Part shown: piece after piece, positions 4,951 to 22,297 of the stretch
Numbering within the stretch: the first letter of the stretch is position 1
Layout: every line of letters starts with the position of its first letter
Origin: a virus
Length of the DNA stretch: 22,631 bases
Reading direction: 5' to 3' (one strand)
IMG/VR virus record: IMGVR_UViG_3300009034_000219
Coordinates: 1 to 22,631 of that record
Notes under the pieces: model-generated
Databases searched by the model: none
What the model was told of the DNA's origin: nothing
What the model saw: the letters and a program-made list of their open reading frames with translations, nothing else
Translations under genes and position numbers: made by a program

Positions 4951-5151
4951 ATGTTCAAGGTTATTGACATAAACGAAATGAGTTGTCAATATAAAAATAT
5001 GCCAAAGCCCGATGCCAAAAGGAAACAAAGGAGATGCGGAGAAAGGGCCGTGTGGCTTATATTATGGGATGCCCGGCATATAGAACCTTTGTTAGTGTGT
5101 CAGAAACATTTAGAGATATTAAATTATTACAATAGGGCTTTAAATAAATAA
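4951..5151 (+). CDS. Small Cys/His-containing hypothetical protein
   Basis: This 66-residue protein begins immediately after the portal stop codon; its upstream sequence (AAAAGGAAAAGG) provides a ribosome binding site. It has a basic middle (PKPDAKRKQRRCGERAV) and scattered candidate metal ligands C12, C29, C50 and H53 (LVCQKHLEIL). The C-x2-H near the end and the RRCGERA segment resemble small zinc-finger proteins seen in many phages, but no family can be named. It heads a run of four mini-genes between portal and protease. Confidence 0.6.
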   Translation: MFKVIDINEMSCQYKNMPKPDAKRKQRRCGERAVWLILWDARHIEPLLVCQKHLEILNYYNRALNK

Positions 5152-5161
5152 GGGGGCTTAG

Positions 5162-5266
5162 ATGGACAGATGTATAAACGCTATTAATGTTGGTTCTAAT
5201 ACTTATGTGTGTTCTTGTCATGGAGCCGAGTTTATTGTTATCCCTATTGGTCACGGTCAAGGATAG
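5162..5266 (+). CDS. 34-residue Cys/His mini-protein
   Basis: A short frame starts at ATG 5162 with an excellent ribosome binding site (AAGGGGGC at 5150-5157) and ends with TAG at 5264-5266. The product contains C4, C17-x-C19-H20 (YVCSCHG) and H31, again suggesting metal binding. Support comes from the ribosome binding site and the cysteine pattern shared with neighbouring mini-genes. It could be a decayed fragment of a longer gene. Confidence 0.45.
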   Translation: MDRCINAINVGSNTYVCSCHGAEFIVIPIGHGQG

Positions 5267-5286
5267 ATTCAGAAACAGTAAAATAT

Positions 5287-5361
5287 ATGATCAAGGAAAA
5301 ACCCCTAAATAGTATTTGCCAAGATTGTGTGAAGAGTTGTCAGGAATGCACGCCAACTTAA
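5287..5361 (+). CDS. 24-residue Cys4 mini-protein
   Basis: A 24-codon frame starts at ATG 5287 and stops with TAA at 5359-5361, directly abutting the ATG of the HTH gene. Its C-terminal half holds two CxxC pairs, C11-x2-C14 and C18-x2-C21 (ICQDCVKSCQEC), a compact zinc-knuckle pattern. No good ribosome binding site is seen, so this is tentative; the four-cysteine pattern and the exact abutment to the next gene are the reasons to list it. Confidence 0.35.
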   Translation: MIKEKPLNSICQDCVKSCQECTPT

Positions 5362-5544
5362 ATGCTTAACAAAGAACGCCTACTCACTCCCCTGCAAGTA
5401 GCTCAAAGGTTACAAGTTAGCCGACATACTATCTGGAGAGCTATTAGGAATGGGGATCTATCCGCCTTTAAAATCAGTAATACAATCTACCGCATTAGGG
5501 AAGATTCCCTGAAAAAATACCTCAGAAACTCAAAAAACAGTTAG
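5362..5544 (+). CDS. Excisionase-like helix-turn-helix DNA-binding protein
   Basis: This 60-residue protein matches the excisionase/HTH_17 pattern: LTPLQVAQRLQVSRHTIWRA gives the helix-turn-helix (residues 8-27), and AIRNGDLSAFKISNTIYRIR (26-45) gives the wing. Such proteins either bend DNA during phage excision or act as small transcription regulators. No integrase is visible nearby, and the gene lies inside the head operon just before a promoter, so a regulatory role is more likely. Its stop codon lies inside a tandem 10-bp repeat (5538-5559) that could be its own binding site. No clear ribosome binding site is seen (upstream bases CACGCCAACTTAA), so translation may be coupled to the abutting mini-gene. 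Confidence 0.8.
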   Translation: MLNKERLLTPLQVAQRLQVSRHTIWRAIRNGDLSAFKISNTIYRIREDSLKKYLRNSKNS

Positions 5545-5559
5545 CTACAGTTAGCTACA
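5538..5559. repeat. Tandem 10-bp direct repeat, candidate operator
   Basis: CAGTTAGCTA occurs twice head to tail at 5538-5547 and 5548-5557, followed by CA of a third copy. The 10-bp period equals about one DNA helical turn, so a protein could bind two copies on the same face. It lies 15 bp before the -35 box of the protease promoter and spans the stop codon of the HTH gene. Confidence 0.6.
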
Positions 5560-5573
5560 CTTAACACCCTGCC

Positions 5574-7644: not shown

Positions 7645-8598
7645 ATGGGAGAAGGAAGAGATTTTCATATAGATAAGGCTATCAGTAACTTACTGGTGGG
7701 TTATCTTGTTGAGGGCTCTATCTACGAAGAGTTATTCCCCGTTTTGCCCGTAAAAAAGCAAAGCGATCTATTCTATAAAATAGATAAAGGGGATTTCTTT
7801 AGGATACCGGAAACTGCGAGGGCTCCTAAGACCGAGCCTAACAAGATTGACTTTGCCACCTCCTCAGCCGGGTATTTCGCCGATAACTACGAATTGCAGA
7901 GTGATATATCCTGGGAGGATATGGACAACGCTGATGATGCTTTTAATCTGACTGTTAGTCATGCCGAGTTGGTTAAGGGATTGTTATTGCTGGACGCTGA
8001 GGATAGGGTTGCCCGTGCAGTAACTTCCGGCACGAATTGCGGGAGTTATGTAACTGCTCCGGCTTCTCTATGGTCTGGCCGTGCCGCAGAAGGCGACTCA
8101 GACCCTATCAGTGATATAGAGACCGGGAAGACCTTTATTCAGCAAAACACAGGCAAGAAAGCCAATGTCATTGTAGTTGGCTATCCTGTTCATACTCAGT
8201 TAATACAACACCCTCAGATTAAGAACAGCATTAAGTATGTGCAACGAACCACTCAGGCCAACATGACTAACGCACTTGCCGACCTTTTCGGTGTAGAGAA
8301 GTATCTTGTGGGCTCGATGATCAAGAATACCGGCTCAGAAAAGTTGGCAGACGCTATGAGCCATGTCTGGTCGCATCATTGCATTATTGCTCATACTGAG
8401 AAACCGAAAGGCCCAGGTATTCCGACTGCAACCGCCGGAATTACCTTTCGATGGAAGTCGCCCAAATTACCCGCTGCGTTTACTGCAAGATGGATGGAAG
8501 ACGGAAAGATATACGCCCGGTCAGTTAGGGTAGGCACATATCAGGACGAAAAGATAGTTGCGACAGATTGCATTTATGCAATCCTGAATACTTTCTAA
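7645..8598 (+). CDS. Major capsid protein
   Basis: At 317 residues, with a strong ribosome binding site (AAAAGGAGGATAG), this gene directly follows scaffold and decoration genes. Conserved-looking features include the N-terminal arm (AISNLLVGYLVEGSIYEELF), the segment IPETARAPKTEPNKIDF, the helix HAELVKGLLLLDAEDRVARA, and NVIVVGYPVHTQLIQHPQIK, as in HK97-fold capsid proteins of the roughly 300-residue Mu T/gpE-type size. It forms the icosahedral shell and is probably cut or rearranged during maturation. The gene is followed by a structured region (8616-8690) whose second hairpin ends in a T run, typical for shutting off transcription after the most heavily used structural gene. Confidence 0.85.
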   Translation: MGEGRDFHIDKAISNLLVGYLVEGSIYEELFPVLPVKKQSDLFYKIDKGDFFRIPETARAPKTEPNKIDFATSSAGYFADNYELQSDISWEDMDNADDAFNLTVSHAELVKGLLLLDAEDRVARAVTSGTNCGSYVTAPASLWSGRAAEGDSDPISDIETGKTFIQQNTGKKANVIVVGYPVHTQLIQHPQIKNSIKYVQRTTQANMTNALADLFGVEKYLVGSMIKNTGSEKLADAMSHVWSHHCIIAHTEKPKGPGIPTATAGITFRWKSPKLPAAFTARWMEDGKIYARSVRVGTYQDEKIVATDCIYAILNTF

Positions 8599-8604
8599 TT
8601 GTCA

Positions 8605-8613
8605 TGCTATATT
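8605..8613 (+). promoter_or_regulatory. Possible extended -10 promoter (low confidence)
   Basis: TGCTATATT at 8605-8613 matches an extended -10 element (TG, one base, then five of six -10 bases). There is no good -35 box. A transcript from here would begin about 8619-8620, at the foot of the 8616-8690 structure, which would then be the 5' leader of the glycosyltransferase gene. Confidence 0.25.
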
Positions 8614-8615
8614 AT

Positions 8616-8690
8616 GGGGGCTACTTTTACAGGCTTATATTCCAAGAGGAGTAGCCCCCGCTGGATATAAGCCTTTTTATTAGTAGCCCC
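8616..8690 (+). other. Structured intergenic region: overlapping inverted repeats, possible pseudoknot or RNA switch
   Basis: GGGGGCTACT (8616-8625) is the exact reverse complement of AGTAGCCCCC (8650-8659). AGGCTTATAT-T-CCA (8631-8644) is the reverse complement of TGGATATAAGCCT (8662-8674) except for one bulged T. The two pairs interleave, so forming both at once gives an H-type pseudoknot with 10- and 13-bp stems. AGTAGCCCC recurs at 8682-8690 and could instead pair with 8617-8625, which gives an ordinary nested fold enclosing the second stem. The region lies between the capsid gene and the glycosyltransferase fusion. Confidence 0.7.
8631..8678 (+). terminator. Rho-independent-type terminator after major capsid gene
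   Basis: A hairpin of 13 bp with one bulge (8631-8644 with 8662-8674, 17-base loop) is followed by a T run (8674-8678, then ATT). The stem base is GGC/GCC and the T run starts directly after it, as in intrinsic terminators. Its loop contains the 3' half of the other inverted repeat, so its formation may compete or cooperate with that stem. Confidence 0.6.
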
Positions 8691-8707
8691 AACTTCTAAA
8701 GGAATTT

Positions 8708-11593
8708 ATGAAGCACTACAAATACAGCATCGCCTTTTACATTAATGGTATGCCGTTTGACGGTTCTACACTTGAGACTAAGGATCTCGGAGGCTCTGAA
8801 ACAATAGGGCTTCAAATGGCTCGCACCCTTAAACAACAGGGACATGAAGTAATCGTCTTTTCTAATTGCGAAAGAGAAGGCGATTATAACGGTGTTCAAT
8901 ATCTTAATGTTTCCCGCTTTCCTGAATGGGCTATTTATACCCCACATGATATAACAATAGTGCAGCGAGATCCGCAGGCGTTTAGTTTCCGAATAAACTC
9001 AAAGCTTCATATACTCTGGTCACATGACCTTGCTCTTAATAGATTCACCCCTCTTGTCCGGGGAACATTATGGAATGTAGATCAAGTATGGGTATTGAGT
9101 GAGTTTATGAAAGACCAATATAAGGAAGTATATAAACTGCCCGATGAAGCATTTAAAGTAACAAGGAATGGCATTGACCGATACCTTTTACCTGCTCCCC
9201 GGCCATTAGAACAGAGGGATAGAAACAAAGTTATTTATACTGCCAGGCCGGAGAGAGGCATGGATATAGTTCTTGAAAAGACCTTCCCCCGCCTTTTGGA
9301 AAAACTACCTAATTTGAAATTGTATTTAGCTGGATATGATAACAGGGTTCAGCATTTAGCAGGGTTATATAACAAGATAGATAACTTGATTGCGGGACTT
9401 GGTGATAAGGTTGTTCACCTGGGAGCATTGAGAAAAGAAGATTTATACGAACACTACCGGACATCAATGCTTTATTTATACCCTTCCGATTTTGAGGAAA
9501 TATCTTGTATTACTGCGATGGAGTGCATGGCAGTCGGTTTGCCGATGGTAGGGTCATTCCGGGCTGCCCTCCCGGAAACTCTTGGCAATCAGGCAGGGAA
9601 GTTAATTTGGGAAGATGATGCACGGGGTTCTGAATATCAGGGTAGGTTCATTACTGAATCATTAGAGCTATTGACAAATGAGGATAAATGGAAGGAGAAC
9701 TCTGCGGCCGGGTATGAACGATCTAAATTATTTGGCCTTGAATCTTTAGGGCAGGAATGGTCAAAATTGTTTGATGAATATTTTGAAAATGCAACTAAGG
9801 ATAAAGTCAGACTTGCTTATCATTTTACAAGACGAAGTGATATTATAGCTGCGAAAGCTTCGTTGGAAAAAACCAATGATATTAGAAAGGGTAGGCTATC
9901 AAAGCGGCTAAGAAATCAATGGCCCTTCGTTTATGATTATAAATATATCGAGAATGAGGAAATAGCAGCTAAGAAATATCTTGGCGAAGTTGGTGATACC
10001 CTCCGCCCTCCGAACCCTCCCCGTTGGCCTGCCGTTAAAAGGTGGCTTGAGGGGCATCCTAAAGTTAAAAACATTCTTGACATCGGTTGTGCTCAGGGGG
10101 AATATATCGGAGCTATCCTTGACCTTGACGAAAAGTATCATGTAGATGGCTTTGATATATCGCCTTCTATGGTTAACAGTTCCTTGAAAGTTTTAAAAGA
10201 TAAATATTCCAAAGATAGATATACAGTAAGGGTAGCGGATATATTAACAGAGAAGTATCCACATCCTTGCTATGATTTAGTTTTACTAATGGAAGTGCTT
10301 GAACATACCCCGGAACCCTGGAAGCTTGCCGATGCTGCCGAGAAATGGTTAAAACCCGGAGGGATTATTTTGGTAACGACTCCGATGGGGACTTGGGAAA
10401 TGTTCACATATAGAAAGGACAGCAAAAGGGAGCATATATGGGAACTTGAGAATTGGGATATAAAAGGAATGTTCGGCCATAAGCCTAATTTCCAAAAGAT
10501 GATTATTCCTGGTTCGATTTCCGATTTAGATGGTGTAGCGTTGGGGTGGTATTTTTACACATGGCAGGAAGGTGGTGAACCTGCAAAACCTATTGATATG
10601 GATCGTAAATTGTATGTGCAGAATCCGAGGCAAACAATATCAGTTTGTATGATAGTCAAAAATGGCGAGGATATGTTGAGGCGGTGCTTAAAAAGTGTTG
10701 ATTGGATTGCCGATGAGATTATCGTTGCTGATGATAATTCTACTGATAGCACCAGAGAAATATTAAAGGGATATGCAGACATGGTTATTGATGGGCTGAG
10801 TCCCGTAGAGGTAGGGTTTGACGAAGCCCGGAATAATAGTATTAAATCTGCCCAAATGGACTGGATATTATGGATTGATGCCGATGAGGAGTTATTGAGA
10901 ACAAACCATATTGATAAATATCTGAGGGAAAATATATTTAATGGCTATGCAATCCGGCAACATCATTTCTCTACAAATCCCCCTAATGCCTTTCCGCCCG
11001 ATCTGCCTGTTAGATTATTTAGAAACAATAAAAGCATTAAGTTTTTCGGTGTTGTTCATGAACACCCTGAAATAGGATTAAATAAAAGCGTTGGTGATGT
11101 TACTCTATTAGGTGATGTAGAGATTGCTCACGATGGTTATTTTACCGAGGAGGGGCGGATAAAAAGATTTCATAGAAACTTCCATCTTATGATTAGGGAT
11201 AGAGAAAAATATCCCGATAGGGTGCTTGGCAAATTCTTAATGGTTAGGGATTGGGCTCACCTTGCCCGCTATAAATTACAAGCTAATAGAGGTCAAATGA
11301 CTGAGGAAATAGCCGGGATATGCCATAATGCTATTAACCTTTATAGAAAAGAATTTCTTGGCAATGGTTGTAATATCAGATGGATGATTGACGGGTTGCC
11401 TTATTACTCGGAAGCCGTAGGCTTTCTCGGCCTGGGTATCAAGGCAAAAATAGCAATGGATATAAAACCGGATAACCCCGATCCTTCTAATAACTTTTTA
11501 GAGGCAAGGTTTTTAAATCCAGATGATATTAAGGCTTTTACGAATGCTTTGATTAATGACATGAGTAACCCCTGGATGGGGAAATATGTTTAA
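8708..11593 (+). CDS. Three-domain enzyme: GT4-type glycosyltransferase, SAM methyltransferase, GT2-type glycosyltransferase
   Basis: This 961-residue protein has three recognisable enzymes. Residues 1-360 look like a GT-B (GT4) glycosyltransferase: DLGGSETIGLQMA at 26-38, RPERGMDIVLE near 180, and the E-x7-E signature E264...E272 in DFEEISCITAMECMAVGLP. Residues 450-565 are a class I methyltransferase: ILDIGCAQGEYIG at 456-468, acidic D483 in GFDISP, and YDLVLLMEVLEHTPEPW. Residues 643-830 are a GT-A (GT2) glycosyltransferase: SVCMIVKNGEDMLRRCL, ADDNSTDSTREIL, and the metal-binding DAD at 724-726. The last 130 residues are helical and unassigned. Ribosome binding site AAAGGAA. Placed between capsid and neck genes, it probably glycosylates virion proteins, but host-surface modification is possible. 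Confidence 0.85.
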   Translation: MKHYKYSIAFYINGMPFDGSTLETKDLGGSETIGLQMARTLKQQGHEVIVFSNCEREGDYNGVQYLNVSRFPEWAIYTPHDITIVQRDPQAFSFRINSKLHILWSHDLALNRFTPLVRGTLWNVDQVWVLSEFMKDQYKEVYKLPDEAFKVTRNGIDRYLLPAPRPLEQRDRNKVIYTARPERGMDIVLEKTFPRLLEKLPNLKLYLAGYDNRVQHLAGLYNKIDNLIAGLGDKVVHLGALRKEDLYEHYRTSMLYLYPSDFEEISCITAMECMAVGLPMVGSFRAALPETLGNQAGKLIWEDDARGSEYQGRFITESLELLTNEDKWKENSAAGYERSKLFGLESLGQEWSKLFDEYFENATKDKVRLAYHFTRRSDIIAAKASLEKTNDIRKGRLSKRLRNQWPFVYDYKYIENEEIAAKKYLGEVGDTLRPPNPPRWPAVKRWLEGHPKVKNILDIGCAQGEYIGAILDLDEKYHVDGFDISPSMVNSSLKVLKDKYSKDRYTVRVADILTEKYPHPCYDLVLLMEVLEHTPEPWKLADAAEKWLKPGGIILVTTPMGTWEMFTYRKDSKREHIWELENWDIKGMFGHKPNFQKMIIPGSISDLDGVALGWYFYTWQEGGEPAKPIDMDRKLYVQNPRQTISVCMIVKNGEDMLRRCLKSVDWIADEIIVADDNSTDSTREILKGYADMVIDGLSPVEVGFDEARNNSIKSAQMDWILWIDADEELLRTNHIDKYLRENIFNGYAIRQHHFSTNPPNAFPPDLPVRLFRNNKSIKFFGVVHEHPEIGLNKSVGDVTLLGDVEIAHDGYFTEEGRIKRFHRNFHLMIRDREKYPDRVLGKFLMVRDWAHLARYKLQANRGQMTEEIAGICHNAINLYRKEFLGNGCNIRWMIDGLPYYSEAVGFLGLGIKAKIAMDIKPDNPDPSNNFLEARFLNPDDIKAFTNALINDMSNPWMGKYV

Positions 11594-12100: not shown

Positions 12101-12421
12101 ATGAGATTAAGAGGTAGAAAACCAAAAACAGAAAAGAAGGTTAAGAGTGAGTCGAAAGATGAGATTGTGGCAATGACAGGGAAGGGCGGAAAGGTAATAA
12201 CGCTGCGAAACGAATTTCATAAGACTGAGACAGCTATTAATGTGTCAAGGGAAGGTGTTGGCATATTAAGTAAAAAAGAAGTTGAGACGATAAAAGATAA
12301 ACTTTATAATGGTGGCTGTAATTTTTGTGGTAATGAATTGGGAATGAGGGGTCATCAAGATTTTGTTTATCGGCTCGATCCCGTAGAAGACGAAGGAATA
12401 CAAATCACTGTTATTGAATAA
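12101..12421 (+). CDS. Small protein with CxxCG and G-x-RG motifs, coupled to the radical SAM gene
   Basis: This 106-residue protein has a basic N-terminus (MRLRGRKPKTEKKVK) and a C-terminal part with NEFHKTETAINVSREGVGI, then C73-x2-C76-G (GGCNFCGNELGMRGHQ). The combination of FH-x-TE, a helix before the cysteines, CxxCG, and G-x-RG recurs in uncharacterised phage and bacterial proteins I have seen, but I cannot name the family. Two cysteines and H85 could bind zinc or be modified. Ribosome binding site AAAGGAGGATG. The stop codon overlaps the radical SAM start (TAATG), so the two are probably made together and might be partners, for example substrate and enzyme. Confidence 0.65.
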   Translation: MRLRGRKPKTEKKVKSESKDEIVAMTGKGGKVITLRNEFHKTETAINVSREGVGILSKKEVETIKDKLYNGGCNFCGNELGMRGHQDFVYRLDPVEDEGIQITVIE

Positions 12422-13155
12422 TGCAACCAATAACCTCTATTACCAACATAGAACTATCCAGCTTGTGTAATAACAAGTGTCCTTATTGCCCTAATCAGGT
12501 TCAAGGCAATTACAGGGATGTTGGTTTGATGACATTGGATATATATGAAAGGACTTTGTATTGGTTGGATAAGTTGGTTGAACAGGGAACTCAGTTAGAG
12601 CAGTTGAATTTATTTGGCATTGGTGAGCCTACTATGAATCCGGCCTTACCCCGGATGATAAGAATGGCTCGTGAAGTATTCCCGAATCCGGGTATCTTGC
12701 ATTTTAACACTAATGGAAAATTGATGACTGAGGACTTGGCAATAGCTTGTAGAGATGCGGGGATAACAAGTATTGATATTACTGCACATGATGCTAAGTC
12801 AACAGCAAAGACAGTAAAAATATTCAGAAAGGCACATATCAAGTTTAATTGGAATATTGATTATGCCGTTTATCCTAATAATTGGGCGGGGCAAATAAAC
12901 TGGACTGATAATGTAGATTATGAAATGAACTGCCCCTGGCTTGGCCGGGGTGAGGTGATGATTATGTCTAATGGTGATATAACAACCTGTTGCCTTGATG
13001 CCTTCGGTTATGGGATAGTAGGCAATGTATATCAAGATATGTTTAAAATGAGATTGAAGCCTTTTAAATTATGTGCAACCTGTCATCATATTATACCTGA
13101 GAGGATGCAAGAGAATAAGATAATTATGCCTAATGTCGGGGTGGTTCATGCTTGA
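12421..13155 (+). CDS. Radical SAM enzyme with SPASM/twitch-like C-terminus
   Basis: This 244-residue protein has the radical SAM cluster motif C16-x3-C20-x2-C23 (LCNNKCPYCPNQ), the GEP-type motif FGIGEPTMNP at 65-74 and HFNTNGKLMTEDL at 94-106. The C-terminus shows an auxiliary iron-sulfur pattern: C171 (NCPWLGRG), MSNGDITTCCLDAFG with C190/C191, GIVGNVYQDMF, and C218-x2-C221 (KLCATCHH). This is typical of SPASM or twitch domains in peptide- and protein-modifying radical SAM enzymes. It uses S-adenosylmethionine to start radical chemistry; the substrate is unknown. It overlaps both neighbours (TAATG upstream, 8 bases downstream), so it is an integral operon member, set among neck genes. A virion protein or the coupled 106-residue protein are plausible substrates. 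Confidence 0.85.
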   Translation: MQPITSITNIELSSLCNNKCPYCPNQVQGNYRDVGLMTLDIYERTLYWLDKLVEQGTQLEQLNLFGIGEPTMNPALPRMIRMAREVFPNPGILHFNTNGKLMTEDLAIACRDAGITSIDITAHDAKSTAKTVKIFRKAHIKFNWNIDYAVYPNNWAGQINWTDNVDYEMNCPWLGRGEVMIMSNGDITTCCLDAFGYGIVGNVYQDMFKMRLKPFKLCATCHHIIPERMQENKIIMPNVGVVHA

Positions 13156-21660: not shown

Positions 21661-22076
21661 ATCTACCTCCCTTCCTCATGCGTAGAATAGCTATTAAAAG
21701 GGCATGGACTCTTTTGGATTTACCTTACTCCTGGGGAGGGGACGATCCTATCGCTGGCTTCGATTGCTCAGGCTTAATAATTGAATTGCTTAAATCGGTT
21801 GGCCGACTTCCTCGGAAATTCGATTGCAGAGCTAAGGACTTATTCAATATGTTTCCTAAAGTGGATAAGCCCCGATCCGGTTGCTTGGTATTTTACGGTA
21901 AAGAAGAAATTACTCATGTAGAGTTCTGTATAAATAGATGGCTGGCAATGGGGGCAAGTGGGGGCGGGTCAAAAGTAAATGACCGATTGACTGCTATCAA
22001 ATATAATGCCTTCATTAAGCTAAGACCTATCAAGAGGGATAGACGGATTATAGGGTATGTAGATCCGTTTAGGTAA
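21657..22076 (+). CDS. NlpC/P60 family peptidoglycan hydrolase
   Basis: This 139-residue protein is an NlpC/P60 cysteine peptidase, which cuts peptide stems in bacterial peptidoglycan. The nucleophile is C37 in DLPYSWGGDDPIAGFDCSG, a typical YxWGG...DCSG motif, and H87 in EEITHVEFC is the catalytic histidine. The closing segment GYVDPFR fits the family. No signal peptide or wall-binding domain is present, so it is a compact single domain, likely an endolysin after holin release, though a tail-tip lysin for entry is possible. It overlaps the holin-like gene by ATGA. Confidence 0.85.
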   Translation: MNLPPFLMRRIAIKRAWTLLDLPYSWGGDDPIAGFDCSGLIIELLKSVGRLPRKFDCRAKDLFNMFPKVDKPRSGCLVFYGKEEITHVEFCINRWLAMGASGGGSKVNDRLTAIKYNAFIKLRPIKRDRRIIGYVDPFR

Positions 22077-22087
22077 TAACTTTATAA

Positions 22088-22297
22088 TTATTTCATTATT
22101 TTTAATATTGTTGTTGCCTCTCTATAATTATTACCTATCTCAAAATTCAATGGCTTAATTTCTATTGCCCTTTTTGTTCCCATTACTATAAGAGCAATAA
22201 CAGTATAAAAATGACCTGTTAATATTCTACGATAAATATCTTCCTTAATAGCACCTTCCAATCCATCTTCATGAGTTCCAAAAACTATATTCTCCAT
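22088..22297 (-). CDS. Hypothetical protein (opposite strand)
   Basis: On the - strand a 69-residue protein is preceded by a perfect ribosome binding site, read in its own sense as GGAAGGAGGC, four bases before ATG. It begins ENIVFGTHEDGLEGAIKEDI, then has a hydrophobic stretch (FYTVIALIVMG) followed by TKRAIEIKPLNFEIG, and ends in a short basic helix. No family is recognised. It lies convergent to the hydrolase gene, with an 11-base gap. Together with the next gene it starts a module of opposite direction. Confidence 0.65.
   Translation of the reverse strand: MENIVFGTHEDGLEGAIKEDIYRRILTGHFYTVIALIVMGTKRAIEIKPLNFEIGNNYREATTILKIMK

Follow-up and report, generated by a model that had tools for sequence, protein, structure and literature searches.

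Attenuators of the trp and his type carry competing terminator and anti-terminator stems, only one of which can form at a time. Terminators that directly follow a capsid gene have been described in T7-like phages. In LUZ100, transcript mapping located a strong terminator directly behind the capsid gene, an arrangement said to match that of T7 (PMC10134795), and a terminator right after the capsid gene has been predicted for JG068 (PMC3765740). The element discussed here lies at the corresponding place in a phage with a different type of head genes, and its pairing arms overlap one another. It is likely, in our view, that the capsid mRNA receives its 3′-end signal from this element, which would act as a leaky intrinsic (Rho-independent) terminator and, probably as a by-product, as a 3′ hairpin that stabilises the mRNA.

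The locus and its surroundings

The window, that is, the whole stretch of 22,631 nt analysed here (IMG/VR record IMGVR_UViG_3300009034_000219), comes from a tailed phage whose head genes are of the Mu/B3 type (a Mu-like portal and a B3-like capsid). The genes follow the order terminase, Mu-like portal fused to an F-like domain, protease, decoration or scaffold protein, major head protein and glycosyltransferase (GT) fusion. The 109-nt gap between the last two holds all arms of the element together with the T-run (Table 1). A tblastn search with the capsid matched 110 phage records at 23-31% identity. Across its 16.4-kb overlap with the window, the record IMGVR_UViG_3300009034_000180 shows two mismatches; it carries an identical element and represents the same virus. 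No relative was found between this identical copy and approximately 43% identity, and neither the capsid nor the GT fusion revealed a relative in host genomes.

Table 1. Features of the capsid-GT fusion junction, in window positions
Feature	Position	Strand	Basis or remark
Major capsid (head) protein gene	7645..8598	+	phrog_1005, E 6.4e-58; precedes the element
Optional outer arm (fold I)	8606..8613	+	Pairs with 8664-8672 and brings the S1 hairpin against the T-run
S1a GGGGGCTACT	8616..8625	+	Perfect pairing with S1b (10 bp) and S1c (9 bp)
S2a AGGCTTATATTCC	8631..8643	+	With S2b, 12 pairs and one bulge
S1b AGTAGCCCCC	8650..8659	+	Loop copy that creates the interleaving
S2b GGATATAAGCCT	8663..8674	+	3′ arm of the terminator-type stem; runs into CTTTTTATT
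T-run CTTTTTATT	8673..8681	+	Direct reading; terminator scan of the same region in L016
S1c AGTAGCCCC	8682..8690	+	Closes the long nested hairpin (fold II); pair 8617-8690 has probability 0.98 in the full-length fold
Likely ribosome-binding site AAAGGA of the GT fusion gene	8698..8703	+	Direct reading; outside all predicted stems
GT4 - methyltransferase - GT2 fusion gene	8708..11593	+	Pfam and PHROGs matches; 961 residues; next gene after the element

A fusion of GT4, SAM methyltransferase and GT2 domains 3′ of the capsid gene is common to approximately 30 IMG/VR phages (L017-L046), at 30-46% identity; at a guess, its product might serve in glycosylation or methylation of the virion. A radical-SAM gene is situated inside the head-tail operon (12421-13155), and in the relatives L020, L022, L030, L036 and L045 radical-SAM genes lie beside the protease gene or adjoin the GT fusion. 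The top match of the whole promoter scan, a perfect sigma70-type promoter (TTGACA-18-TATAAT, 222-251), lies directly 5′ of the first gene of the packaging/head operon (259). The last late gene has a 10-bp perfect inverted repeat at its end (TAGGTAATAA / TTATTACCTA, 22070-22137), where genes on opposite strands converge in the overlapping contig. Within the late operon, two stretches of approximately 600 nt (1943-2565 and 4951-5573) are devoid of coding-strand ORFs of at least 80 residues. Moreover, the overlapping contig has a long, strongly folded intergenic gap (L004, 8410-8620; -81.6 kcal, z -2.2), which has no Rfam match.

Architecture of the element

The whole can be seen as a single long imperfect inverted repeat: S1a and S2a form one arm, S2b and S1c the other, each approximately 28 nt long, and the loop contains S1b as a further copy of the base arm. 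The AGTAGCCCC box is present in three copies at near-even spacing, with centres 33 and 32 nt apart. A sequence-only reading had described two inverted repeats interleaved as in an H-type pseudoknot at 8616-8690, and the arms are found at these positions: S1 is perfect over 10 bp, the further copy of one arm is present, and the second stem runs into a T run. The bulge in S2 is also there, but the stem counts 12 pairs and not the 13 bp that had been proposed.

The same reading held that such a layout would hardly arise by chance, and the shuffling data agree. S1 and S2 make up the only interleaved pair of perfect repeats of at least 9 bp within 80 nt in the whole window. Dinucleotide shuffling of the window (400 shuffles) never produced an interleaved pair of at least 10 bp within that distance, and it produced one of at least 9 bp in eight cases. 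When the S1 arms were kept fixed and the loop and flanks were shuffled, the interleaving stem reached p=0.005, which is the floor of the test, while the S1b loop copy was matched in 3 of 20000 loop shuffles. The region as a whole folds with a z-score of -3.8 to -4.0 (0/200 shuffles equally stable), and its terminator score exceeds that of all 30 shuffles. The outer arm is not above chance, with 331 of 1000 left-flank shuffles equally good, and was rejected as a designed part of the element for this reason.

Predicted folding of the growing transcript

The folding path was followed with energy models by nested folding of growing transcript prefixes. In a transcript reaching 8661, S1 closes first (-24.6 kcal). 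With the end at 8681, the best nested fold (fold I, -29.4 kcal) combines S1 with the outer stem 8606-8613:8664-8672, which has a pair probability of 0.95 and whose base touches the T-run; S2 alone gives -19.9 kcal. Extension to 8690 yields a long nested hairpin in which S1c pairs with S1a around S2 (-36.6 kcal), and at full length (to 8707) this nested hairpin is favoured at -38.0 kcal with pair probabilities of 0.97-0.98. Coexistence of S1 and S2 in a knot (10+10 or 10+7 bp) passes a crude rigid-helix test, which ignores linker volume and charge. The energy of the knot, calculated with a textbook value for the knot penalty, is estimated at -28 to -34 kcal, compared with the above values for fold I at the T-run and for the full-length nested hairpin.

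These models suggest that a pseudoknot is possible, both sterically and energetically, as a short-lived state, and that the long nested hairpin wins after S1c has been transcribed. Of the pseudoknot and the alternative nested fold put forward earlier, the knot is thus compatible with the interleaved arms and with crude geometry, whereas the full-length RNA prefers the nested hairpin. All folds considered at the T-run, i.e., S1 with the outer stem, S2 alone and the strained S1+S2 knot, are predicted to place a stem against it. Prefix folding at first suggested S1 as an anti-terminator; this idea was dropped because the S1 fold also ends at the T-run. In the model the energy gap of this competitor is 0.0, and the two folds are not exclusive in the manner of a terminator and an anti-terminator.

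Post-capsid hairpins in related phages

Searching with the GT fusion gave 30 further contigs, 24 of which have a capsid gene upstream, and a capsid profile search added more loci. Of 86 distinct post-capsid strips, 37 passed a strict terminator test, compared with 10/73, 5/70 and 2/21 at the control junctions after the decoration, protease and gp36 genes, respectively (Fisher p 4e-5, 2e-7 and 3e-3); these p values are optimistic, since the relatives are mutually related, and the contrast may be exaggerated, as densely packed coding sequence is frequent at the control junctions. A second related set, collected from a relative's capsid, gave 14/45 vs 2/35. The mean folding z is -2.49 after the capsid gene and -0.68 (decoration), -0.78 (protease) and -0.47 (gp36) at the controls. 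Stems with stacking <= -12 follow the capsid gene in 79 of the 86 strips, and where the capsid-to-GT order is kept, a simple hairpin with a T-run is common in the post-capsid strip. A terminator-like hairpin is missing after the capsid gene of the nearest relatives with this order (L018, L039 and L046; capsid identity 35-43%), and others have strong stems without a good T-run (e.g., L043, L056, L065, L108, L112 and L115). Hence, the post-capsid hairpin is common in the phage group and not universal, with only about half of the set passing the test.

The hairpin sequences also change quickly. L127, L128, L129, L130 and L132 have capsids 76-84% identical to that of L078, and their hairpins differ from that of L126, which is the same virus as L078. 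The post-capsid structure is thus kept although its sequence is replaced. Interleaving of the kind seen in the window reaches p<=0.05 in 6/86 relatives, where approximately 4.3 are expected. It was therefore rejected as a group feature, and the knot-like arrangement appears confined to this lineage. Loci that looked interleaved by eye (L028, L053/L097 and L078) were likewise set aside; only L078 reaches p=0.05, which is unremarkable among 86 tests.

Some of these strips deserve mention in their own right. After the capsid gene of L126 (2419-2520), the series GGCGCATCCTC / GCTCCC / GAGGATGCGCC / GGGAGC resembles a classical H-type pseudoknot, the last arm of which overlaps a GGGG:CCCC stem before CTTTTT; with p=0.05 alone, this is possibly chance. 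In L127 and L128, a second long hairpin approximately 50-110 nt past the capsid stop shows several paired changes between the two phages (AAAGGCGTATCTG:CAGATACGCCTTT versus AAAGCTGCAACTG:CGGTTGCAGCTTT) around a shared internal CTGAAAGTAT. It is preceded by a short CCTGCTGCCGCAGG hairpin that recurs in sister phages.

A probable leaky terminator and its alternatives

A leaky terminator is the most economical account of the element. As in intrinsic terminators, the stem ends at 8672/8674 and is followed by CTTTTTATT, with a loop longer than in textbook cases. The T-run directly 3′ of the stem, folding beyond what composition gives and the positional enrichment in relatives all support this assignment, and the terminator suggested by the sequence-only reading fits with the strong hairpins, many with T-runs, that occupy the same place in related phages. 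Termination may be weak, given the long loop (~18-20 nt) and the A+U-rich base of the stem. A simple consensus terminator scan, which allows loops of up to 8 nt, did not list the element. Moreover, a consensus scan found no sigma70-like site between 8600 and 8707, although a phage-specific promoter would escape it. Because no sigma70-like promoter was detected between the element and the downstream structural and tail genes, read-through is presumably needed, and hence leakiness. We infer from the sequence that RNA polymerase would stop at the element, and that this stopping would be partial and lower the expression of what lies downstream.

In such a mechanism, the terminator would sit between a heavily needed capsid gene and the little-needed GT fusion and tail genes. 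S1 would form first. While the T-run is being synthesised, S2b would pair either with the outer arm or with S2a, the latter once S1 has opened or within a transient knot; all three options would set a stem against the T-run. Should the polymerase read through, S1c would displace S1b and the RNA would settle as one long hairpin. On the basis of the modelled folds, we read the element as one that tolerates several folding routes and not as an on/off switch. The overlapping arms are a real oddity, and may be either a by-product of duplication or template switching in an often-replaced hairpin or a fine-tuned folding route. A more elaborate version, which we consider rather improbable, is a folding relay: the knot would let the terminator stem close without opening the first hairpin, and on read-through the third arm would dissolve the knot by strand exchange. 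If true, the relay would tune capsid expression relative to that of the glycosyltransferase and tail genes.

A true conformational switch, in which the balance between an early S1, an S1+S2 H-type pseudoknot formed at the T-run and a late S1c-closed hairpin would set the read-through into the GT gene, is unlikely. A protein, a ribosome or a ligand might shift this balance. The interleaving and the S1b loop copy are both beyond chance, the knot is allowed by crude helix geometry at an energy comparable to that of fold I, and S1c can displace S1b once transcribed. However, all states modelled at the T-run have the shape of a terminator, and none of them can be recognised as an off state; the predicted stems do not include the likely ribosome-binding site, and Rfam gave no match at the gathering threshold, with no known RNA family or conserved sensor recognised. 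The earlier proposals of built-in on/off states or an RNA switch controlling the GT fusion accordingly find no support here, the modelled S1 fold being no anti-terminator and the relatives sharing no interleaving beyond the frequency expected by chance. It is also decidedly unlikely that the hairpin, with its ~28-nt arms, acts not as a terminator but as a site of RNase III-type cutting or a barrier to exonucleases, by which the capsid mRNA would be separated and protected. The full-length RNA does fold as a long imperfect duplex, and several relatives combine strong post-capsid stems with the lack of a good T-run, stems with stacking <= -12 occurring in 79/86; the T-run directly after S2b, and after the stems of many relatives, favours termination instead.

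The three boxes at near-even spacing, and the extra copy, which suggests duplication or template switching, could reflect either the remnant of a repetitive or mobile element that had inserted there or a protein-binding site built from repeated AGTAGCCCC boxes. We regard this reading as very improbable. There is no second copy of the element in the window or the overlapping contig, two IMG/VR pattern scans built on the arms found only this virus and unrelated places without partner arms, and the ends of the element show no visible target duplication; dispersed copies of the REP/MITE kind were thus not seen, and the footprint of an inserted element that had been suggested finds no backing. Type III toxin-antitoxin RNAs are repeat pseudoknots that precede a toxin gene. 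Such an RNA was considered in view of the ~32-nt spacing and rejected, as the next gene is the glycosyltransferase fusion.

These findings show that selection maintains an RNA hairpin in the strip after the capsid gene of this large, mostly uncultivated phage group, although the sequence of the strip is quickly exchanged. A post-capsid hairpin would offer phages without known late promoters a simple means of adjusting how much capsid is made relative to tail proteins. The interleaved version would be a compact test case for terminator function amid several competing RNA folds; if only ordinary termination takes place there, the layout is a curiosity.

Comparison with known systems

The element shares the order S1a-S2a-S1b-S2b with the H-type pseudoknots found, for example, in preQ1 riboswitches and at frameshift sites, and crude geometry permits both stems. 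In contrast to these, its stems are far longer and its linkers short for the stem length, the third arm favours a nested fold, it does not lie in a coding overlap, and it matches no aptamer family. With attenuators of the trp and his type it has in common several mutually exclusive pairing arms that adjoin a T-run. It differs in that the competing stem is predicted to keep the terminator, and in having no leader peptide, ligand or conserved sensor.

Relative to the terminators of T7-like phages (T7 T-phi, LUZ100 and JG068), the element occurs in a phage with Mu/B3-type head genes and has overlapping alternative arms, and termination is here read from sequence. Like them, it combines a hairpin and a T-run directly after the capsid gene, and it shares their presumed role, namely that the capsid mRNA outnumbers the mRNA downstream.
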